Assembly (NCBI GenBank): GCA_030432315.1
Contig: JAUIHM010000029.1
Span: 1 to 35,170 of the forward strand
Direction: 5' to 3'
Length of the DNA: 35,170 bases
Source of the DNA: Alphaproteobacteria bacterium
Lineage (GTDB): Bacteria > Pseudomonadota > Alphaproteobacteria > Rhodobacterales > Rhodobacteraceae
Under the pieces are notes generated by a model. The model did not search any database. It had not been told where the DNA came from and saw nothing but the letters and a program-made list of their open reading frames with translations. Position numbers and translations under genes: made by a program. Shown here one piece after another: positions 11,582-21,416 of the stretch. Position 1 is the first letter of the stretch. Each line of letters opens with the position of its first letter.

Positions 11582-11620
11582 CCGGCTGCGACCGGTCCGG
11601 CACCCCAGGACCTCCGGTCA
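11579..11620. terminator. Candidate bidirectional hairpin between convergent stops
   Basis: TGACCGG (11579-11585) pairs with CCGGTCA (11614-11620), with an inner GGTCC/GGACC stem at 11594-11598 and 11608-11612. The outer arms contain the stop codons of both the mannosidase and the GntR gene. No T-run follows, so it may be a weak or Rho-assisted bidirectional terminator. Confidence 0.4.
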
Positions 11621-12274
11621 GATCGAGTCCCTGACCCGATCCCATGTGCGCTTCAGATGCAGTGCCATGATGTCACCCAGCCGCTTCCCGTCCCGCAGTT
11701 CGAGCGCCGTGGCCATTTCCCGGTGGTCGGCGACGGCGTCGTCCCAGTCCGTCGGCTTCTGGTTGCCGATGAACCGGATCCGTTTCAGACGGGCTTGAAT
11801 GTTGGACTGAACCTCAACAAGCGTCGGGTTTTGGGAAAGTTCCGCCAGACGGGTGTGAAAGAGCTGGTTCAGTTTGTAGTAGGGCAGGCGGTCCCGTTCC
11901 TCATAGTGCTTCATCATCCGGTTGTGGATGTCGAGCAGTTCCGACACTTCTGCCGCACTTGCCCGTTCGCAGGCCAGTACACCGCCGAGCCGTTCGATTT
12001 CCGCCAGAACCTCAAGCATCGACCGCACATCGTCGGCCGAAAGTTTCCTGACGACGCTCCCCTTTGACGGGCGGATGACCACAAGGCCTTCTGCGGCGAG
12101 CGTGCGCAGGGCCTCGCGGAACGGCGTTCTTGAAACCCCCAGCTTTTCAACCAGTTCAGTTTCATCGATCCGTGAGCCTGGCTCAAGGTAGCCCTCAATG
12201 ATCAGGTCACGCACCTGGCTGGCGACCTGGTCATGCAGGGTCTGCTTTGCAATCGGGGCCGGTCCAATTTTCAT
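11618..12274 (-). CDS. GntR-family transcriptional regulator, FadR/FCD subfamily
   Basis: A 218-residue regulator. The N-terminal winged helix-turn-helix spans about residues 10-75, with landmarks LHDQVASQVRDLIIEG, SRIDETELVEKLGVSRTP and FREALRTLAAEGLV. An FCD ligand domain follows, with an all-helical pattern including HTRLAELSQNP and the metal/ligand histidine region VADHREMATAL. Members bind palindromes and release DNA on binding an organic acid or sugar acid. It is divergent from the PdxA-TRAP operon, with about 110 nt between the two starts, and TTGTATACAA sits in that gap over the likely promoter. Control of that operon is therefore the most probable job. The gene ends in a convergent hairpin shared with the mannosidase. 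Confidence 0.88.
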   Translation of the reverse strand: MKIGPAPIAKQTLHDQVASQVRDLIIEGYLEPGSRIDETELVEKLGVSRTPFREALRTLAAEGLVVIRPSKGSVVRKLSADDVRSMLEVLAEIERLGGVLACERASAAEVSELLDIHNRMMKHYEERDRLPYYKLNQLFHTRLAELSQNPTLVEVQSNIQARLKRIRFIGNQKPTDWDDAVADHREMATALELRDGKRLGDIMALHLKRTWDRVRDSI

Positions 12275-12334
12275 CTCTGCCGTCTCACTCCGTGCTGATC
12301 CCGTCCGTTTCCGTTCACCATACGAAAACCTCGG

Positions 12335-12365
12335 TTGATCTGCGATACATTTCTGTTGTATACAA
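12335..12365 (+). promoter_or_regulatory. Promoter of the PdxA-TRAP operon with overlapping GntR-type operator
   Basis: TTGATC (12335-12340) lies 17 nt before GTATAC (12358-12363), a plausible -35/-10 pair. A perfect 10-bp palindrome, TTGTATACAA (12356-12365), covers the -10. FCD-type GntR regulators commonly bind palindromes of this kind (a G-T...A-C core), so binding here would block RNA polymerase. I found no second copy of the palindrome in the window. Confidence 0.6.
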
Positions 12366-12384
12366 AATAAAAAAGAGGAAATAC

Positions 12385-13467
12385 ATGAATCGCAAACTCA
12401 GGATCGCCTTCGCGATCGGTGATGCCGGTGGGATCAGCCCGGAACTGACGGCAGGGATCCTTGCCGATCCCGAAGCCAATCTGAACGACCTCATGGTCAT
12501 CGGAGACAGGCGCCTGCTGGAGTTGGGCGCGCGCGACGCCGGGGTTTCGCTCGATCTGCCCGTGGTGGATGTCGAAGACCTCGACGGCCCGCTGCCGTCT
12601 GGCAGCTTCATGGTCGATCTGCGTAACTGTGATCCGGAGGAGGTGCCGCAGGGCGCGTCAAGCGAGGGAAGCGGACGCGCAGCGGTGCAGAATTTTCGCT
12701 GTGCTTTGCTGGCGGCAAGCGCCGGTGCAGCGGATCTGGTGTTCTTTACCCCGTTCAACAAATACGCGATGCGTCTTGCTCAGGCGGATTACGTCGACGA
12801 GATCGGCTTCATCAACGCCACGATCGGCGCCGAACGCTCCGGACGGGAGTTCAACGTGCTCGAAGAGGTGTGGAATGCCAGGGTGACCTCGCACATTCCC
12901 CTTCGCGAAGTCGCTGACGCCCTGAGCGAGGAACGGATCTACCAGAGTATCAGGCTGACCACCGAAATCATGAAGGGGGCGGGGTTCGAGCGGCCGAGGA
13001 TCGGGGTTGCGGCAATCAATCCGCACGCCGGTGACGGACGCAACTTCGGAACCGAGGACGAGGACATCATCTTCCCCGCCGTCCAGCGGGCCGCGGCGGA
13101 ACAGATGGCCGTCACCGGACCCATACCATCCGACACCGTTTTTGTGCGGGCGATAAAGGGTGAGTTCGACGCGGTTCTGACCATGTATCACGATCAGGGT
13201 CAGATCGCCATGAAGCTGCTGGGGTTTGACCGCGGCGTCACGCTGATCGCCGGGTATCCGTTCCCGATCGTCACCCCCGCCCACGGCACCGCCTATGACA
13301 TCGCCGGCCGCGGAATCGCGGACACCGGTGCAACCCGAAATGCCGTGGCCCTCGGGCGCAGGCTGGCCGCGCTCCAACCGGTCCGCGCCGCTGCCGGCGG
13401 CGACGGTGCTTCCGGACTTTCCACCCAGTTCCGCCGCGCTCTCGATCCGCAGGCAGTGTGGAGCTGA
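12385..13467 (+). CDS. PdxA-like (4-hydroxythreonine-4-phosphate dehydrogenase family) oxidoreductase, divergent
   Basis: A 360-residue PdxA-family protein. The start is the ATG at 12385 with GAGGA 6 nt upstream. The three metal histidines are kept: His170 in SHIPLREV, His214 in INPHAGDGRNFG and His269 in MYHDQGQIAMKL. The C-terminal NAD/active-site block TPAHGTAYDIAGRG is also present. Two things differ from biosynthetic PdxA. The TGPINK motif reads FTPFNK (121-126), and the PGHTE substrate-binding motif is replaced by sequence around DYVDEIGF (135-142). The last 30 residues are an unusual low-complexity tail. Catabolic PdxA2-type enzymes oxidise phosphorylated threonate or erythronate made by a partner kinase, but no such kinase is present here. 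With a TRAP importer directly downstream, a catabolic 3-hydroxy-acid dehydrogenase is likely. The substrate is unknown. Confidence 0.75.
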   Translation: MNRKLRIAFAIGDAGGISPELTAGILADPEANLNDLMVIGDRRLLELGARDAGVSLDLPVVDVEDLDGPLPSGSFMVDLRNCDPEEVPQGASSEGSGRAAVQNFRCALLAASAGAADLVFFTPFNKYAMRLAQADYVDEIGFINATIGAERSGREFNVLEEVWNARVTSHIPLREVADALSEERIYQSIRLTTEIMKGAGFERPRIGVAAINPHAGDGRNFGTEDEDIIFPAVQRAAAEQMAVTGPIPSDTVFVRAIKGEFDAVLTMYHDQGQIAMKLLGFDRGVTLIAGYPFPIVTPAHGTAYDIAGRGIADTGATRNAVALGRRLAALQPVRAAAGGDGASGLSTQFRRALDPQAVWS

Positions 13468-13522
13468 GCCGTCGAATGCTGACTTCACAACAACAACCGA
13501 CATCGCAACAGGGAGACTGAAA

Positions 13523-14503
13523 ATGCAACTTTCGAAAATCGTCGGTGGTCTTGCCGGCCTGGTGGTCGCCGCCGGCACAGGCATGGCGACCGCCCAGGAG
13601 GAACTTCTCTTCGGCATCAGTGCGGCACACGGTTCACTGCAGGAGCAGACCGCGAGCGAATTCGCCCGCCGAGCAAACGAAAAGCTTGGCGACAGGGCTG
13701 TAGTAAAGGTCTTTGACTCCTCGCAGTTGGGGAAGGACAAGGACATGCTGCAGAAGGTCAAACTGGGCACCATGACCCTGACCCTGCCGTCCTCCACCAT
13801 GCCGGAAATCGACCCGGTCTACGCGATATTCGACCTGCCGTTCATCGTCGCCGACCGGGCGCATCTCGCGCGCATCGACGAGACCTTCTTCAAGGACGTT
13901 CTCGTCCCGGCGGCGGAAGCGCAGGGCTACCTGCCGCTGGCGATCTGGGAAAACGGCTTTCGACAGATCACCAACAACGAGCGGCCGATCACCACGCCCG
14001 CGGATCTGAACGGCCTGAAGATCCGGACGCCGAATTCGTCCTGGCGGGTGGCCATGTTCAAGGAATACGGCGCGAACCCGACGCCGATGTCCTTCTCCGA
14101 AGTCTTCGTGGCACTGCAGACCGGCGTGATTGACGGTCAGGAAAACCCGCTGACCAACATCTCCGCCGGCAAACTCAACGAGGTGCAGAAGTACCTTTCG
14201 CTCACCGGCCATGTATATTCGCCGGCCTATCCGACCGTTGGTCTGGCCGCCTTCGGCAGGCTTGACCCCGAGGTGCAGGTGATCCTGGCTGAAACCGCGC
14301 AGGAAGTCGCCGGCTGGGCCCGGGACATAGGCGAGGGCGCCGACGACGAACTGCTGGCGGAACTGACCGCATCGGGCATGGAGGTGAACACCGCCGACCG
14401 CCAGACCTTTGTCGAAGCCTCGGCGCCGCTCTATGCGAAGTTCGCAGATGAGGTCGAGAACGGTCAGGCGATGATTGACCAGGTGCTGTCGCTCGCGAAC
14501 TGA
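13523..14503 (+). CDS. TRAP transporter solute-binding protein (DctP family)
   Basis: A periplasmic DctP-type receptor of 326 residues. The start is the ATG at 13523 with GGGAGA upstream. The signal peptide runs to about TATAQ at residue 24. Family landmarks are visible: PPP-like fold opening FGISAAHGSLQEQTAS, then DLPFIVADRAHL, WENGFRQITNNERPI, the ligand-carboxylate-binding region LNGLKIRTPNS with the conserved Arg, and GVIDGQENPLTNI. TRAP receptors bind organic and sugar acids through that Arg. The gene lies 55 nt after the PdxA-like gene, and a 13-bp hairpin separates it from the permease genes. The ligand probably feeds the PdxA-like enzyme; its identity cannot be read from the sequence. 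Confidence 0.88.
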   Translation: MQLSKIVGGLAGLVVAAGTGMATAQEELLFGISAAHGSLQEQTASEFARRANEKLGDRAVVKVFDSSQLGKDKDMLQKVKLGTMTLTLPSSTMPEIDPVYAIFDLPFIVADRAHLARIDETFFKDVLVPAAEAQGYLPLAIWENGFRQITNNERPITTPADLNGLKIRTPNSSWRVAMFKEYGANPTPMSFSEVFVALQTGVIDGQENPLTNISAGKLNEVQKYLSLTGHVYSPAYPTVGLAAFGRLDPEVQVILAETAQEVAGWARDIGEGADDELLAELTASGMEVNTADRQTFVEASAPLYAKFADEVENGQAMIDQVLSLAN

Positions 14504-14521
14504 GACCAGAGCGGACTGAAC

Positions 14522-14560
14522 CTGACGCGGGCGGATGCGCATCGGCACCGCCCGCGTCAG
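14522..14560 (+). repeat. GC-rich intercistronic hairpin after the TRAP binding-protein gene
   Basis: CTGACGCGGGCGG (14522-14534) pairs perfectly over 13 bp with CCGCCCGCGTCAG (14548-14560), with a 13-nt loop. It lies between the receptor stop and the small-permease start, and no T-run follows. Position suggests an mRNA 3'-end stabiliser or partial attenuator that keeps receptor levels above permease levels. Confidence 0.7.
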
Positions 14561-14594
14561 CGCCCTAAAACCCGACATCTCCGGAAAGCCCTGA

Positions 14595-15152
14595 ATGCGC
14601 CGCCTCTCCCACTGGTTCGACATTCTTCTCCAGGCCGTCACGCTCGTCCTTCTTGTGGGGCTGACGGTGGTTGTCCTGCTTGGAATCTCCTTCCGCTATT
14701 CCGGATACTCGCTGATCTGGTATGACGAAGCTGCATCGGTTCTGCTGGCCTGGATCACCTTCACCGGCGCCGCGCTGGCGATGCACAGAAGCGCCCACCT
14801 CGGGTTCAACGGCCTGCTCTTCGGCCTGAACCTCGCCGGGAGGCTGGCGCTGTTCTGGAGTGTCGAGGTGCTGGTCCTTGGCACCCTGGCGGTTGTCGCC
14901 TGGGCCGGATGGGCGATCCTCGACATATTCGGCAACGAAACCCTGACCACGCTTCGGTTTCTGCCCCGCAGCTTCGTCCAGGGCATTCTCCCGGTCAGCG
15001 CGGTGCTGATGATCGTCGGCCGCATCCTGACCGCTCCCCGCCGGCTCGCGGCGACCGTCGAGGGCAGGAACCCGGAACTGATCGAGATCGAAGAAGAAAT
15101 CTCCAGGGCGGAACTTGAACACCGGCGCACTGAAACGGAGCTCCGGCGATGA
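14595..15152 (+). CDS. TRAP transporter small permease (DctQ family)
   Basis: A 185-residue membrane protein with the four hydrophobic spans expected of DctQ subunits (for example ILLQAVTLVLLVGLTVVVLL near residues 9-28 and VLLAWITFTGAALAMHRSAH near 50-69). The family landmark is the charged YDEAASVL followed by the MHRSAHLGF turn. It pairs with DctM in the inner membrane. The C-terminal tail from about residue 155 is hydrophilic and rich in Glu and Arg. The start ATG at 14595 follows a purine-rich stretch. The stop overlaps the DctM start in an ATGA motif (15149-15152). Confidence 0.88.
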   Translation: MRRLSHWFDILLQAVTLVLLVGLTVVVLLGISFRYSGYSLIWYDEAASVLLAWITFTGAALAMHRSAHLGFNGLLFGLNLAGRLALFWSVEVLVLGTLAVVAWAGWAILDIFGNETLTTLRFLPRSFVQGILPVSAVLMIVGRILTAPRRLAATVEGRNPELIEIEEEISRAELEHRRTETELRR

Positions 15153-16435
15153 CCGAAGCACTCGTTCTTCTATCGATGTTTCTGATGATCGCGATTGGCG
15201 TTCCGATAGCCATTGCAATCCTCGCCAGCGCGCTTGCCGGTGTCTTCATCCTGAACGGACATCTCGGTTTTCTCAACGCGGCGCTGTCACTGTTCGACGG
15301 TGCAACGAGCTTCCCGCTGATCGCCATTCCGCTCTTCGTACTCGCGGGCGCGCTGATGAACACGGGCGGCATCTCGACCCGGCTCATCGCCTTCGTCTCG
15401 GCCCTGATCGGCTTCGTTCGCGGTGGGCTGGCGATGGTCAACGTCGGCGTCTCGCTGTTCTTCGCGGAAATCTCCGGTTCTGCGGTCGCAGACGTCGCCG
15501 CAACCGGTTCGGTGCTGATCCCGGCGATGAAGAAAAAGGGATATTCCCCCCGCTTTGCGGCGGCAATCACCTCTTCTTCGGCTTCCCTTGCAATCATCAT
15601 TCCGCCGTCGATCCCCATGATCCTCTACGGCGCGCTCTCCGACACGTCCATCGTTCAGCTGTTCGTCGCCGGCGTCGTCCCCGGACTGCTTGGTGCCGCA
15701 GGCCTGATGGCTCTGTCCTACTGGTTTGCCGTCCGCTACGATCTGCCGCGCGAAGAGGCGTTCAACCTCTGCCGGCTCTGGGCCGCGACCCGGGATGCCG
15801 CCTTCGCCCTGATCCTGCCAGTGATCATCCTGGGTGGCATCTTCGGCGGGATTGTCACGGCAACCGAAGGCGCCGGGCTCGCCGTGGTCGCCGCCCTGTT
15901 CATCGGCGTCTTCGTCTATCGCGAAATCGACATTCCGAAGCTCTACCATGCGCTTGTCGACGGCGTAATCCAGACGTCTGTCGTCATGCTGCTGGTCGCT
16001 TCCTCCGCGGTGCTCGGACTCTATCTGATCGAAACCGGCCTGCCGCAGCGACTCGCCGCCGGAATTACCGACATCACCACCAACAAACTCGTCGTGCTGA
16101 TGATCATCAACGTGTTTCTGCTGTTCGTCGGCATGGTGCTGCACGGTGCGGCGGCAATCATTCTGACGGTGCCGATCTTCATGCCGCTGGTTCACCAGTT
16201 GGGAATCGATCCGGTACAGTTCGGCATACTGATCACCCTCAACATAGCCCTGGGCCAGCAGACGCCGCCGGTCGCCAGCGTTCTCATCACTTCTTGCTCA
16301 ATCGCAAAAACCGATGTCTGGGGAACGACGCGAACCAATCTGCCGTTTATCGGCGTCCTGGTCGCGGTGCTGATGCTGGTGACATATGTGCCGGCAGTTT
16401 CTCTGTCACTGGTCGAGATTTTCTATCGGCAGTAG
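15149..16435 (+). CDS. TRAP transporter large permease (DctM family)
   Basis: A 428-residue polytopic protein, the usual DctM size, with about a dozen hydrophobic spans starting at residues 3-33. Family landmarks are GSAVADVAATGSVLIPAM, the SLAIIIPPSIPMILYG block, GLLGAAGLMA, and near the end QQTPPVASVL. It forms the sodium-coupled transport channel with DctQ. It is the last gene of the GntR-regulated operon and is translationally coupled to DctQ by a 4-nt overlap. It appears intact. Confidence 0.9.
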   Translation: MTEALVLLSMFLMIAIGVPIAIAILASALAGVFILNGHLGFLNAALSLFDGATSFPLIAIPLFVLAGALMNTGGISTRLIAFVSALIGFVRGGLAMVNVGVSLFFAEISGSAVADVAATGSVLIPAMKKKGYSPRFAAAITSSSASLAIIIPPSIPMILYGALSDTSIVQLFVAGVVPGLLGAAGLMALSYWFAVRYDLPREEAFNLCRLWAATRDAAFALILPVIILGGIFGGIVTATEGAGLAVVAALFIGVFVYREIDIPKLYHALVDGVIQTSVVMLLVASSAVLGLYLIETGLPQRLAAGITDITTNKLVVLMIINVFLLFVGMVLHGAAAIILTVPIFMPLVHQLGIDPVQFGILITLNIALGQQTPPVASVLITSCSIAKTDVWGTTRTNLPFIGVLVAVLMLVTYVPAVSLSLVEIFYRQ

Positions 16436-16522: not shown

Positions 16523-18223
16523 TCAGGCCGCGTCCTCCTTCCGCCGGATCGTATCCGCCTGCGGAGTTCTTGAGAAGAATCCGACAAGCTGCCGCAGGTT
16601 TTCGGCACCGCCTGCCAGGCGGGCGGCACCGGCCGCGCTGTCCACGGCCAGCGCGGCGCTCTTGCGTGTCGCATCGTCCATGCTGGCGGTGGCGTTGGTG
16701 ATTTCAGCGATGCCAAGCGCCTGTTCCCGGCAGGCACCGGTAATCTCGGCGACGCTCGCGGCAATGCCGGTGACGGCGGTCGAAATACGGGCGAGCGACC
16801 CACCGGTTTGCCGGACCAGATCGGCACCCTGGACCACTTCCTGGTTGCTCGTCTGAATCAGCGCGGTGATGTCGCGCGCGGCGTCGGCGGCGCGCTGTGC
16901 CAGCACCCTGACTTCACTGGCGACGACGGCGAAACCCCGGCCGGAGTCCCCGGCTCGGGCGGCCTCGACACCGGCGTTGAGTGCCAGAAGGTTCGTCTGA
17001 AACGCGATGGACTCGATCACCTGAATGATCGACGAGATTTCGCCGGAGCTCTTTTCAATGCGACCCATGGCCTCCACGGCCTCGCCAACCACGGCTTCGC
17101 TGCCGGCCGCGAGTTGCGACGCATCCTCGGCGGAGGCGTTCGCGGTTTCGGCATGGGTGGCTGTTCCGCTCACCGTGCTGGAGATTTCCTCCATCGCCGC
17201 CGCCGTCTGCACCAGCGCATTGGCCTGGCCGTCGCTGCGTGTCGACAGTTCCCTCGCATGTTCCGCGATCGTCGCGGATTGCGATACCATCTCTTCCGTG
17301 GCCGCGAGAATGGACCCGACCAGAGCGTCGAGCCGGTCCATCGTTTCGTTGAAACCCGTTCTGATGTCGACAAACTCCGGACTGACGGTTTCCTTGATGC
17401 GCGCCGAAAGGTCACCTTTGGCCAGCGCGGCCAACCCTCTCGAAAAAGCGTTCATGGCGCTGCGCCTGTCGGTGACGTCGATTGCGAACTTGACGACTTT
17501 GACCGGCTTTCCCCGATGATCGAGTATCGGGTTGTAGGTTGCCTGGATCCAGACCTGACGGCCGTCCCGGCCAATCCGGCAAAACTCTCCGGACTGGAAC
17601 TCACCGGCGGCAAGCGAGGCCCAGAATGCGCCATATTCCCGGCTTTGCGCGTAGTTGCGGTCGACGAAAAGGCTGTGGTGCCGACCGACCACCTCATCGG
17701 GCCGGTAGCCCATGGTCGTGAGAAAATTCTCGTTGGCTTCCAGTATCGTGCCGTCGAGGCTGAACGTCACCGTGCCCTGCGACCGCGTGATCGCACTGAC
17801 CTGGCCCGCGGCGTCGAGCGCCTTGAGCTTTGAGGCAGTGATGTCCGTTGCCACTTTGATGATCCGGTGGCCGCTGGCGGCGGGCACCGGAGTGTAGGAC
17901 GCGTCAAGCCAGACCGTCTGCCCGTCCTTGGAGATTCGGGAAAACTCGCCCCGAAGGACCTCACCACGCCGGAGGGCTTCCCAGAACACGGCGTCTCCCG
18001 CGCCTGCGGCCTCGTCCGGATCGAGGAAAATTCGGTGGTGCGCTCCCCGAACCTCGTCGATGGTGTAGCCCATGAGGTCGAGAAAATTCCGGTTCGCTTC
18101 AAGCACGTTGCCTTCCGGATCGAACCAGACCACGACATGGGAACGGTTCAGTGCCTCATCCATGGCCCTGAGGTTCAGAAGATCCTGCCCCTGGTCGGCG
18201 CGGCTCGGAAGACGAAACTTCAT
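16523..18223 (-). CDS. Soluble methyl-accepting chemotaxis protein with two PAS domains
   Basis: A 566-residue chemoreceptor. PAS 1 spans about residues 28-130 and PAS 2 about 148-253; each has the LEAN.NFL..MGY motif and a PAC-like end (KVATDIT, KFAIDVT). A HAMP-like segment (about 258-305, [14 protein letters not shown]) leads into the signalling coiled coil. The tip is at about 405-445 ([19 protein letters not shown], then [15 protein letters not shown]), the highly conserved CheA/CheW contact. No hydrophobic membrane span or signal peptide is present, so it should be cytoplasmic and sense an internal signal, perhaps redox or a PAS-bound cofactor; the ligand is inferred, not seen. The start ATG at 18223 has GGAGTTGAG upstream. 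No che genes are nearby, so it must work with a chemotaxis system encoded elsewhere. Confidence 0.9.
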
Positions 18224-18466: not shown

Positions 18467-19381
18467 TCATTTCCCCCAGGACAGCACCAGCGGGTCAAGT
18501 GGTCGGAGCAATCCAATCAGCTGCTGCCGTGTGTCAGGGTGCAGTGGCGGAATCGGATGGCGGCAGAAATCCGACGCGATCACGCCGCCCTCGACCATGG
18601 CCGCCTTGGTGGCGCGAAAACCACATTGCCGGTTCTCGTGATTCACCGCCGGCAGGACCCTGGCATAGGCCGCAACGGCGGCATCACGGTCGCCGGCCTG
18701 ATAGTGTCCCAGCACCGGCTTGATCTGGTCGGGTATCATCGCCGAAGTCATGGTGCCGGTCGCGCCCGCATCGAGATCCGCCAGCAGGGTTATCGCTTCC
18801 TCGCCGTCAAACGGGCCCTCGATGGCGTCTCCGCCGGCGGCGATCAGCGCCCGCAGCTTGGCGGCGGCCTGAACGCATTCGATCTTGAACAGGCGCACCT
18901 GCTCGATTTCCCGTGCCATGCGCACCAGCAGGTCAACCGACAGATCGACACCCGAAAGTGGCGCATCCTGAACCATGATCGGCAGACCGACCTCGCTGAC
19001 GGCACGGAACTGCTCGAATGTCTGTTCCGGCGTGCCGCGCATCAGTGCCCCGTGGTACGGTGCCATCATCATCACCATCGCGGCACCGGTGTCGCGTGCC
19101 AGACGCGCCCTCGCAACCGCGATCTCGGTGGCGAAATGGCTGATGGTGACGATGACCGGCACGCGGCCCGCCACGTGTTCAAGCGACAGCCGTGTCAGCG
19201 TTTCGCGTTCCGCATCGGTAATCAGAAACTGCTCTGAGAAATTGGCCAGGATGCAGATCCCGTCGGAGCCCTGGTCAATCATCAGATCGAGAACGCGCCG
19301 CATGCCTTCAACATCGACGCTGCCGTCAGGGTGGAACGGGGTTGGCGCAACCGGCCAGATGCCAGAGTAGGGATGAGTCAT
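18467..19381 (-). CDS. DHDPS-family enzyme, L-2-keto-3-deoxyarabonate dehydratase-like
   Basis: A 304-residue class I aldolase-superfamily protein. The start ATG at 19381 has GAGGAAAG upstream. The Schiff-base lysine is Lys166 in RLFKIECVQ. It departs from true DapA. The GTTGE motif is replaced by ANFSEQF (46-52), and the catalytic-Tyr YN motif by VQDAPLSG (137-144). These substitutions, together with GDAIEGPFDGEEAITLLADL, the NHENRQ block and the ending DPLVLSWGK, match what I recall of the L-2-keto-3-deoxyarabonate dehydratase of Azospirillum (non-phosphorylative L-arabinose pathway). That enzyme converts its substrate to 2-oxoglutarate semialdehyde. It is divergent from a sugar-acid dehydratase that could supply such a 2-keto-3-deoxy acid. 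Family certain; exact substrate likely but unproven. Confidence 0.75.
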   Translation of the reverse strand: MTHPYSGIWPVAPTPFHPDGSVDVEGMRRVLDLMIDQGSDGICILANFSEQFLITDAERETLTRLSLEHVAGRVPVIVTISHFATEIAVARARLARDTGAAMVMMMAPYHGALMRGTPEQTFEQFRAVSEVGLPIMVQDAPLSGVDLSVDLLVRMAREIEQVRLFKIECVQAAAKLRALIAAGGDAIEGPFDGEEAITLLADLDAGATGTMTSAMIPDQIKPVLGHYQAGDRDAAVAAYARVLPAVNHENRQCGFRATKAAMVEGGVIASDFCRHPIPPLHPDTRQQLIGLLRPLDPLVLSWGK

Positions 19382-19632
19382 TCTTTCCTCGCTTGTCCGT
19401 GGTCTTTTTGTCCAGGCCCGGCACGGTCGTCTCAGATCACATGCTTTCCCGTCCATTCGCCAAACTTTGTTGATCGGTCCAAGCGGGCGGGTCAAGTCCG
19501 CTCTTGGCCCGGACCCTCGAAACATCGATCCGACAGCGGAGCGGCCGGACCGGAGCGCGGCAGGCGCGTACGCTGTTTTCTTCTGCCTCCGCTGCGGCTA
19601 GGTTCAACGCCGATCCAATGGGGAGGTGGAGC

Positions 19633-20730
19633 ATGGGTGTAATAAGGTCCGTGGACGCAAGGCTGTTCAGGATACCGCTGGCGGAAGTCCTGTCCGACGC
19701 GAAACACGGCGATCATACGTTTTTCGAGATTGTCACCGCGACGGTCCACACCACGGACGGTTTGCAGGGGACCGGCTACACCTACACCGGCGGGCGCGGC
19801 GGCCATGCCATCCTGGCGATGATCGAACACGATCTGGTGCCGATGCTGACAGGGCAAAATGCCGCGGAGGTGGAGAATCTGCACGAGGCGATGCTGTGGC
19901 ACGTCCACTATGTCGGCCGCGGCGGCATCGCCTCCTTCGCCATTTCCGCGCTCGACATCGCCCTCTGGGACCTGCGCGGGCACGCAACCGGTCAGCCGCT
20001 CTGGAAAATGGCCGGCGGGGCGGCGCAGACCTGCCGCGCCTACTGCGGCGGCATTGACCTCGGTTTCCCGCTGCCGAAACTGCTCGACAGCGTCCGGGGC
20101 TACCTCGACCGCGGCTTCGACGGCGTGAAAATCAAGATCGGTCAGCCGACCCTCGAAGAAGACCTCGACAGGATCCGCGCCGTACGTGACCTGATCGGGC
20201 CTGACGTGGCCCTGATGGTAGACGCCAACTACTCGATGAGCGTCGATCAGGCGATTGCCGCCGCAAGAGCCTTCGCGCCCTTCAACCTGCTCTGGTTCGA
20301 GGAACCCACGATACCCGACGATTATGCCGGCTACGGGCGGATCGCCGACGCCACCGGCTTTCCGCTGGCGATGGGCGAGAACCTGCACACGATGGAGGAA
20401 TTCGGCCTCGCTTTCGATCATGCCAAACTCAGCTTCATCCAGCCCGACAGTTCCAACTGCGGCGGCATTACCGGCTTCCTGCGCGTGGCGGAACGCGCGC
20501 GGGGATTCGGCCTGCCGGTCTGCAGCCACGGCATGCAGGAACTGCACGTCAGTCTCGTCTCCGCCCAGCCGAATGCCGGCTGGATCGAGGTGCATTCCTT
20601 CCCGATCGACACCTACACCACCCGCCCGCTCGCAGTCGAAAATCACCGCGCCGTGGCTCCCGACGTGCCAGGAACGGGCGTGACGTTTGACTGGGCCAAA
20701 CTCGAAGCGGCGAACCTCCTCAAATCCTGA
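19633..20730 (+). CDS. Mandelate racemase-type sugar-acid dehydratase (enolase superfamily)
   Basis: A 365-residue enolase-superfamily enzyme. The start ATG at 19633 has GGGAGGTGGA upstream; an in-frame ATG at 19618 lacks a site. The acid/base Lys pair is K166/K168 in GVKIKIG. The metal ligands are Asp197 in VDANYS, the Glu of WFEEPT (223/224) and Glu249 in GEN. The mandelate-racemase-type His/Asp dyad is His299 in CSHGMQEL with Asp272 in QPDSSNCGG, spaced as in mandelate racemase itself. [20 protein letters not shown] resembles galactarate/talarate-type dehydratases. It should dehydrate an aldonate or aldarate to a 2-keto-3-deoxy acid, which the divergent DHDPS-family enzyme could process. 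The downstream dehydrogenase genes are broken. Confidence 0.85.
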
Positions 20731-20737
20731 GAATCCC

Positions 20738-21027
20738 ATGACGAGCGCTGCAGCCATTTACCGCGGCAACAGAACCTTTACCGTGGAACAGGTCGACGTC
20801 CCTCCACCTTGTCCCGGCGAGGTACAGATAGACGCCGCCTACTGCGGCATCTGCGGCACGGACCTGCACATCTACCTCGGCCACATGGACAAACGTGTCG
20901 GTTTCGAGCGGACCATCGGCCATGAGATGTCCGGTGTCATCTCGGCAGTGGGCGAGGGGGGCTCCGGTCTTTAGCCCGGCCGAAACGTTCGTGCGACCGC
21001 TCGATCACTGCGGGAACTGTCCGGCCA
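20738..21027 (+). pseudogene. Zinc alcohol dehydrogenase (MDR) 5' fragment, nonsense plus frameshift
   Basis: From the ATG at 20738, 8 nt after the dehydratase stop, the frame gives a clear N-terminal GroES-like domain: VDVPPPCPGEVQI, the zinc-ligand block [10 protein letters not shown], and [14 protein letters not shown]. It stops at a TAG at 20972-20974, where a Lys codon (AAG) would be expected before PG. The similarity resumes one base out of frame from about 20982: [15 protein letters not shown], the start of the structural-zinc loop. It then breaks off into an SDR sequence. About three quarters of the enzyme, including the Rossmann fold, is gone. It was probably a sugar or sugar-acid dehydrogenase co-transcribed with the upstream dehydratase. 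Confidence 0.85.
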
Positions 21028-21416
21028 CCCGCGAAATCGGTCGCGGCATGGCGGCGCGCGGTTCCGGCAAGATCATCTTTATCGCCTCGCTGCCCACTTT
21101 TCAGGGCGGCATCAACGTACCCGTCTACGCCGCTTCCAAGGGCGGGATCGGCCAACTGACAATGGCCTTCGCCAATGAATGGGCCTCGCTGGGCGTGAAC
21201 GTCAACGCCATCGCCCCCGGCTACATCAACACTGACAACACCGAGGCACTGCGTAACGATCCGGACCGTTCGCGATCCATCCTTGATCGAATTCCCGCCG
21301 GCCGCCGGGGTGTGCCCGAAGATTTCGGAGGCCCGGCAGTGTTCCTCGCCTCCGCGGCGTCGGACTACAAGAACGGCCATGTGATGACCGTCGATGGCGG
21401 GTGGATGGGACGCTAG
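21028..21416 (+). pseudogene. SDR (gluconate/2-deoxygluconate dehydrogenase-like) 3' fragment
   Basis: In the frame that carries the shifted end of the alcohol dehydrogenase, the sequence changes abruptly after GNCPAT to the second half of an [39 protein letters not shown] with the catalytic Tyr/Lys, and [20 protein letters not shown]. The end is [12 protein letters not shown] and a TAG at 21414-21416. The N-terminal cofactor-binding half is absent. The family resembles KduD/gluconate 5-dehydrogenase. The simplest reading is one deletion that joined the 5' part of the alcohol dehydrogenase to the 3' part of a neighbouring SDR gene. The chimera has no cofactor site and cannot be a working dehydrogenase. 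Confidence 0.85.

Follow-up and report, generated by a model that had tools for sequence, protein, structure and literature searches.

What does a PdxA-like dehydrogenase act on when it is encoded with its own importer and apparently without a kinase to prepare its substrate? The question is raised by an operon on contig JAUIHM010000029.1 of an alphaproteobacterium of the Rhodobacteraceae, analysed here over its full 35,170 nucleotides (the window, contig C160; the draft genome, 86.6% complete, comprises 189 contigs and 3.37 Mb). An earlier note on this DNA had described a divergent PdxA-like enzyme with a complete TRAP importer, and both are present at 11618-16435, together with a divergently transcribed gene for a GntR-family regulator; DctP, DctQ and DctM are all there, intact and on the + strand. 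The note had further suggested that the enzyme oxidises a non-phosphorylated acid in an unassigned pathway. We conclude that the substrate is quite probably a free sugar acid. Our more specific reading, to which we give a probability of roughly 0.45, is that the operon takes up a free tetronate for C3 oxidation by the PdxA-like enzyme, and that the product feeds OtnK and OtnC to dihydroxyacetone phosphate (DHAP).

We discarded the possibility that the enzyme is a singleton oddity, as a scan of GTDB species genomes returned at least 595 candidate stretches and at least 582 confirmed relatives. The best 80 (L028-L107; 54-78% identity to the window protein) were analysed, and counts out of 80 below refer to these relatives and their loci. 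The FTPFNK motif of the window protein (residues 121-126) is exact in 77 of them, the other three having FTPYNK, FSPFNK and FVPFNK. Its YVDEI motif (residues 136-140) recurs as Y-x-D-E in all 80 and as Y-x-D-E-I in 77, and the three metal histidines, H170, H214 and H269, are kept in 80/80; alignment thereby bore out the motifs and histidines that the note had read. In maximum-likelihood trees (quick search, SH-aLRT support), the phylogeny that the note had called for places the family in a single supported clade apart from PdxA and PdxA2, with 84 rows and support 97 in the first tree and 85 rows and support 98 in the second. The window protein groups with L028, L029 and L030 (support 95, first tree); long branches elsewhere leave the deeper joins unsure. 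No description of an FTPFNK PdxA subfamily turned up in the open-licence literature, which is not proof of absence.

Where the subfamily departs from PdxA2 is on the substrate side. In E. coli PdxA, residues H136, T137, K274, N283 and R292 carry a UniProt/HAMAP annotation as substrate sites, and H136, T137, N283 and R292 (the HTNR tetrad) would be the residues that hold the phosphate. By alignment, the window protein has E139, I140, T286 and I295 at these four positions. The replacement runs through the subfamily: the H136 position is glutamate in 80/80 relatives and the T137 position isoleucine in 77/80, while in 79/80 the N283 position is threonine and the R292 position isoleucine, leucine or valine; arginine stands at the latter in none of the 80. 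The sole exception at 283 and 292, L044, has sequence there that looks garbled. Asp247 and Asp267 are conserved in 80/80, and so is Lys274, the remaining one of the five annotated substrate sites.

The tetrad is intact in all 18 distinct PdxA and PdxA2 controls, at least four of which are of the PdxA2 kind. These controls comprised 14 proteins of relatives, most of them resembling their genome's ordinary PdxA and two (L014, L016) adjoining a DUF1537 gene; the genome's own PdxA on contig C95; E. coli PdxA; and two plasmid proteins, one adjoining a DUF1537 kinase and the other annotated as a D-threonate 4-phosphate dehydrogenase. Outside the clade, the tetrad is missing from three sister-group proteins as well (L012 ELSV, L013 EHTI, L121 YKTI), which makes its loss older than FTPFNK. 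It is lost, too, in both relatives encoded in aromatic-dioxygenase operons of the terephthalate type (L125 YPAF, L126 FQSF), which, going by their operon, would act on unphosphorylated diols. PdxA enzymes with free substrates are known (8zj7), and a phosphate can therefore not be presumed for every PdxA member outside vitamin B6 synthesis.

The window protein falls below the cut-off of all seven NCBIfam PdxA-type models that match it, including the biosynthetic PdxA equivalog TIGR00557 (227.2 of the 290.35 bits needed) and the PdxA2/D-threonate 4-phosphate dehydrogenase equivalog NF002891 (184.7 of 583 bits). Its AlphaFold2 model (mean pLDDT 88.5) matches PdxA 1yxo at Z 36.7 and the terephthalate dihydrodiol dehydrogenase/decarboxylase 8zj7 at Z 32.2, the structures of the latter enzyme, 8zj7 among them, lying at Z 31-32. 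The best PDB sequence matches are 2hi1 (166.6 bits) and 6e85, and no member of the FTPFNK subfamily is among the solved structures.

The kinases found with the subfamily bear on the order of oxidation and phosphorylation: OtnK takes an acid after its oxidation, and a PdxA-like enzyme that feeds it would therefore use the free acid. The note's claim of no kinase stands for the window, where no DUF1537 family member occurs among the open reading frames (ORFs) scanned, a few small or late-found ones lying outside the scan. It does not stand for the genome, which has two DUF1537 (PF07005) genes on other contigs, nor for some of the nearest relatives, of which L028 (77%) and L032 (78%) carry OtnK-, OtnC- and OtnI-like genes in the PdxA-like locus, the kinase lying 3.9 and 1.4 kb from the PdxA-like gene, respectively. 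The equally close L029 and L030 have an LtnD homologue and no DUF1537 gene within about 8 kb. Across the 80 loci, a DUF1537 gene lies 1.2-4.6 kb from the PdxA-like ORF in 15, and 14 of these also have an OtnC-like aldolase. Eight of the 15 neighbour proteins were tested: all eight score 391-611 bits as 3-oxo-tetronate kinases, above the cut-off of 350, and as D-threonate kinases none exceeds 156 bits, short of the 450 required. Beside two tetrad-intact PdxA2-like genes, the kinases fit D-threonate kinase better than OtnK (106 versus 76 and 101 versus 69 bits), a control that is only indicative because its scores fall far below either cut-off. A DhaK-type (dihydroxyacetone) kinase is found in 18/80 loci, accompanied in 17 by a TIM-barrel isomerase, and both kinase types occur in four of the 80. 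On two Nitratireductor plasmids (77% identical), genes for otnK, an aldolase and a TIM-barrel protein adjoin the GntR, PdxA and TRAP genes, and one of the plasmids has a gene annotated denD close by. Taken with the loss of the tetrad throughout the relatives and in both dioxygenase-operon proteins, these OtnK- or DhaK-type partners support the idea of a non-phosphorylated acid.

In the organism itself, contig C143 carries an ltnD-otnK-otnC-otnI cluster, in which OtnK (552 bits), OtnC (285) and LtnD (419) score over their cut-offs and the OtnI-like isomerase below (268 of 325 bits). Against the D-threonate kinase model NF047819, the genome's two DUF1537 proteins reach 120 and 78 of 450 bits, on a model named for the gamma type under which even the kinases beside tetrad-intact PdxA2 score only 101-106 bits. 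The second DUF1537 gene (L006, contig C11, 7076-8686, - strand) is OiaK-like (3-oxo-isoapionate kinase; 503 of 700 bits), and apionate-type catabolism may also be present in the genome. The described L-threonate pathway runs through LtnD, OtnI, OtnK and OtnC to DHAP (PMC12540250), and Brucella growth on D-erythronate requires OtnK (PMC10580937). To call the pathway unassigned was probably too strong, since the likely product, 3-oxo-tetronate, would enter this described OtnK/OtnC branch.

The route we propose would begin with import of a free four-carbon sugar acid (a tetronate) by the TRAP system, D-erythronate, D-threonate and L-erythronate being the best candidates. D-erythronate and L-threonate are already the substrates of DenD and LtnD, which may leave the other isomers to the PdxA-like enzyme. 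That enzyme would oxidise the tetronate at C3, using NAD and a divalent metal and without prior phosphorylation, to the beta-keto acid 3-oxo-tetronate; OtnK would phosphorylate and OtnC decarboxylate this product to DHAP, so that the coupling would be made in trans, from another contig. The kinase would thus follow the dehydrogenase, the reverse of the kinase-first order of PdxA2. Alternatively, the PdxA-like enzyme might itself decarboxylate its product to dihydroxyacetone, possibly suiting those relatives that have a dihydroxyacetone-type kinase.

Set beside PdxA2 (4-phospho-D-threonate/D-erythronate dehydrogenase with a DUF1537 kinase), the subfamily shares the fold, the three metal histidines, a catabolic setting and probably the class of organic-acid substrate, but it has E-I-T-I/L/V in place of HTNR, its tested partner kinase is OtnK (post-oxidation) or of DhaK type and not a D-threonate kinase, and its importer is TRAP or TTT. 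With the OtnK/OtnC tetronate pathway it probably has the intermediate 3-oxo-tetronate in common, and OtnK and OtnC are in the same genome, whereas the proposed entry is a single C3 oxidation and not a C2 oxidation followed by isomerisation. For this widespread subfamily as a whole, we consider it an even call that its members are (decarboxylating) 3-dehydrogenases of free aldonic acids that oxidise first and serve as a shared head for two modules. On this view four-carbon acids would pass on to OtnK/OtnC, and where a four- or five-carbon acid is decarboxylated, the resulting ketose would go to a DhaK-type kinase working with a TIM-barrel isomerase.

The perfect palindrome TTGTATACAA lies about 20 bases before the start codon of the pdxA-like gene, between it and the GntR gene, and would be the operator through which the regulator controls the PdxA-TRAP operon. 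At least 8 of its 10 bases are matched upstream of the PdxA-like gene in 30/80 loci, against 2/80 in one mononucleotide shuffle. The note had named a DUF1537 kinase elsewhere under the same operator as grounds for refuting its idea, and this holds by half: the genome has DUF1537 genes elsewhere, and the operator does not recur. Because the palindrome occurs once in the 3.37-Mb draft genome, at this position, no kinase stands under the exact operator. Matches of 8/10 bases some 200 bases before OtnK in L032 and L111 were left unused, as in L005 a match of this kind is expected once every 18 kb.

Counted with no identity thresholds, the PdxA-like ORF has a TRAP or TTT importer gene at most 1 kb away in 67/80 loci and at most 3 kb away in 70/80. 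Counts of neighbours with thresholds depend on the values chosen in the analysis; they give TTT parts in 53/80 loci, TRAP parts in 14/80 and neither in 13/80, the last including short contigs and, only since its TRAP genes are 39-40% identical, L028. The importer type thus varies between TRAP and TTT, two transporter types, around a constant PdxA-like gene. A GntR homologue of at least 36% identity occurs somewhere in 71/80 loci, and 54/80 have a GntR match no more than 1 kb from the PdxA-like ORF. Downstream of the PdxA-TTT genes on a Paracoccus plasmid (L112, 13225-14622) is an oxidoreductase with DRL and SAF domains; L114 has a similar-sized gene, annotated FlgA, at the matching place.

The receptor offers a pointer to the substrate. 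By sequence, the nearest solved receptors to DctP are 4p9k/4pak, 4pdh and 4nq8 (E 8e-55 to 2e-50), which are probably erythronate or pantoate complexes. R147, R168 and N208 of DctP are invariant in 21/21 aligned receptors and by position fit the Arg/Arg/Asn carboxylate site given in PMC11668362. The same paper notes that receptors related to its own are bound to pantoate or erythronate. We treat receptor relatedness as a lead to the substrate, not proof of it.

A number of observations weigh against the tetronate-to-OtnK reading. We know of no measured activity for any member of the FTPFNK subfamily. DctP is only 32-38% identical to the presumed erythronate or pantoate binders, the SiaP sialic-acid receptor follows closely in the same search (E 3e-49), 4xeq and 4pdd, tied within about 1 Z, top its structural ranking, and the ligands of crystallised receptors were mostly co-purified (PMC11668362). 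OtnK is unlinked to the PdxA-like gene in this genome, and the 18-kb stretch round it on C143 has one two-mismatch match to TTGTATACAA, where 0.94 are expected by chance. Its presence in trans says little, because OtnK is common in this bacterial family (over the cut-off in 20/37 same-family genomes). Four genomes with a close relative (G000, G012, G036, G020) divide into three with OtnK and no Dak1 and one with Dak1 and no OtnK over the cut-off; as 27/37 of the same-family genomes have at least one of the two, four out of four tells little, and we did not count the occurrence of either as evidence of coupling. On the tree, OtnK presence changes at least seven times and DhaK at least six, and there were too few independent pairs to test one against the other. 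Neither kinase type is found in the sequence covered at 51/80 loci, or in 38/61 long loci. Finally, a DhaK-type kinase paired with a TIM-barrel isomerase (17/18 loci) suits a four-carbon ketose derived from a five-carbon acid better than it suits dihydroxyacetone, and the neighbouring 2-keto-3-deoxy-arabonate (KDA) dehydratase genes also hint at five-carbon acids.

These last points lead to a different substrate: a free pentonate, oxidatively decarboxylated to erythrulose, which a DhaK-type (erythrulose) kinase and the TIM-barrel isomerase would then handle, while the nearby KDA dehydratase and enolase-type dehydratase would act on the same or a related acid. The known erythrulose kinase/isomerase routes have both genes in common with 17/80 of the loci, and the one isomerase tested (L118) gives 312 bits to 5tnv, presumably a Mycobacterium smegmatis protein; that species has an erythrulose route. 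A KDA dehydratase homologue occurs in 10/80 loci, in the window and in the sister-group loci L119 and L120, and in L120 the TRAP, PdxA-like, enolase-superfamily and KDA dehydratase genes form a one-strand run. But no Dak1 protein was found in the organism's own draft genome, 86.6% complete as it is, and unlike in those routes the ketose would come from an acid, not a polyol. Nor is there a DhaK in the closest loci, L028 and L032 with OtnK/OtnC/OtnI-like genes and L029 and L030 with an LtnD homologue, and the receptor is nearest to the presumed erythronate binders. We regard the five-carbon substrate as unlikely, though worth keeping in view. That the enzyme is an ordinary PdxA2 in a new spelling, taking a 4-phosphorylated tetronate from one of the genome's two DUF1537 kinases and holding the phosphate with other residues, seems to us distinctly improbable. 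The two DUF1537 genes, a fold and metal site like those of PdxA2 (2hi1 and 6e85 being the best sequence matches) and a Lys274 kept throughout would all agree with it; yet four substrate-side positions are replaced together in 80/80, one of them by glutamate, the genome's two kinases reach 120 and 78 of the 450 bits that mark the D-threonate type, the tested neighbour kinases are of the post-oxidation type in 8/8 cases, and 65/80 loci have no DUF1537 gene in the sequence covered.

The family also offers a precedent for another hydroxy acid altogether, in TphB/TpaB, the terephthalate cis-dihydrodiol dehydrogenase/decarboxylase (8zj7, 4aty), which, as its name implies, uses an unphosphorylated substrate and decarboxylates it. 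Its structures match our model, it has the PdxA fold, and the four positions are lost both in the subfamily and in the two dioxygenase-operon relatives. The latter, however, have other replacing residues (YPAF, FQSF), a dioxygenase operon and an aromatic substrate, and they lie far off in the tree (path 10.6-10.8, versus 5.5-6.4 for four PdxA2-like rows); no Rieske or other aromatic-dioxygenase family member occurs among the window ORFs scanned, the related loci not having been searched for dioxygenases. We hold such a substrate to be slightly less probable again than a phosphorylated one. As for a second PdxA copy for vitamin B6 synthesis, membership of PF04166 would fit, but a separate PdxA with an intact tetrad is encoded on C95, the window protein scores 227 bits where the PdxA equivalog asks for 290, and its context is an importer and a GntR regulator; we give this explanation next to no credence.

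Features of the operon and its neighbourhood in the window, with the evidence for each.
Feature	Position	Strand	Evidence
GntR-family (FCD) transcription regulator, divergent from the operon	11618..12274	-	PF00392 and PF07729 over cut-off
Perfect palindrome TTGTATACAA, probable GntR operator	12356..12365		sole copy in draft genome
PdxA-family dehydrogenase, FTPFNK subfamily, 360 aa	12385..13467	+	PF04166, 265.9 bits (cut-off 27)
DctP, TRAP solute-binding receptor	13523..14503	+	PF03480, 294.5 bits
DctQ, TRAP small membrane subunit	14595..15152	+	PF04290, 61.2 bits
DctM, TRAP large membrane subunit	15149..16435	+	PF06808, 385.5 bits; TIGR00786 over cut-off
2-keto-3-deoxy-arabonate (L-KDA) dehydratase homologue	18467..19525	-	373.6 bits to 7c0c, L-2-keto-3-deoxyarabonate dehydratase
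Enolase-superfamily protein, probably sugar-acid dehydratase	19618..20730	+	PF13378 and PF02746 over cut-off

Beyond the operon, the KDA dehydratase homologue probably has its true start near 19380, and the enolase-superfamily protein reaches no NCBIfam cut-off. The link of this divergent pair (18467-20730) to the PdxA-TRAP operon is uncertain; a KDA dehydratase homologue near the PdxA-like gene in L119, and one together with an enolase-superfamily gene in L120, hint at a pentonate branch tied to the family. Between the TRAP operon and this pair lies a gene for a PAS-PAS methyl-accepting chemotaxis protein (16523-18223, - strand), and two Nitratireductor records have a diguanylate cyclase/phosphodiesterase gene at the matching position. 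At 20738-21416 (+ strand), a zinc alcohol dehydrogenase stops after about 78 residues and is followed, in another frame, by the C-terminal half of a short-chain dehydrogenase, which could reflect gene decay, recombination or a join made in assembly. Genes elsewhere in the window include those for an ABC sugar uptake system and a GH38 alpha-mannosidase, as well as rhamnose genes.

If the tetronate reading is true, it would add a one-step entry into the tetronate pathway and would explain PdxA-like operons that have no D-threonate kinase. It would also provide a simple sequence rule, HTNR kept versus lost, that separates phosphorylated from free substrates family-wide, and the rule predicts that no D-threonate kinase will stand beside members that have lost the tetrad.

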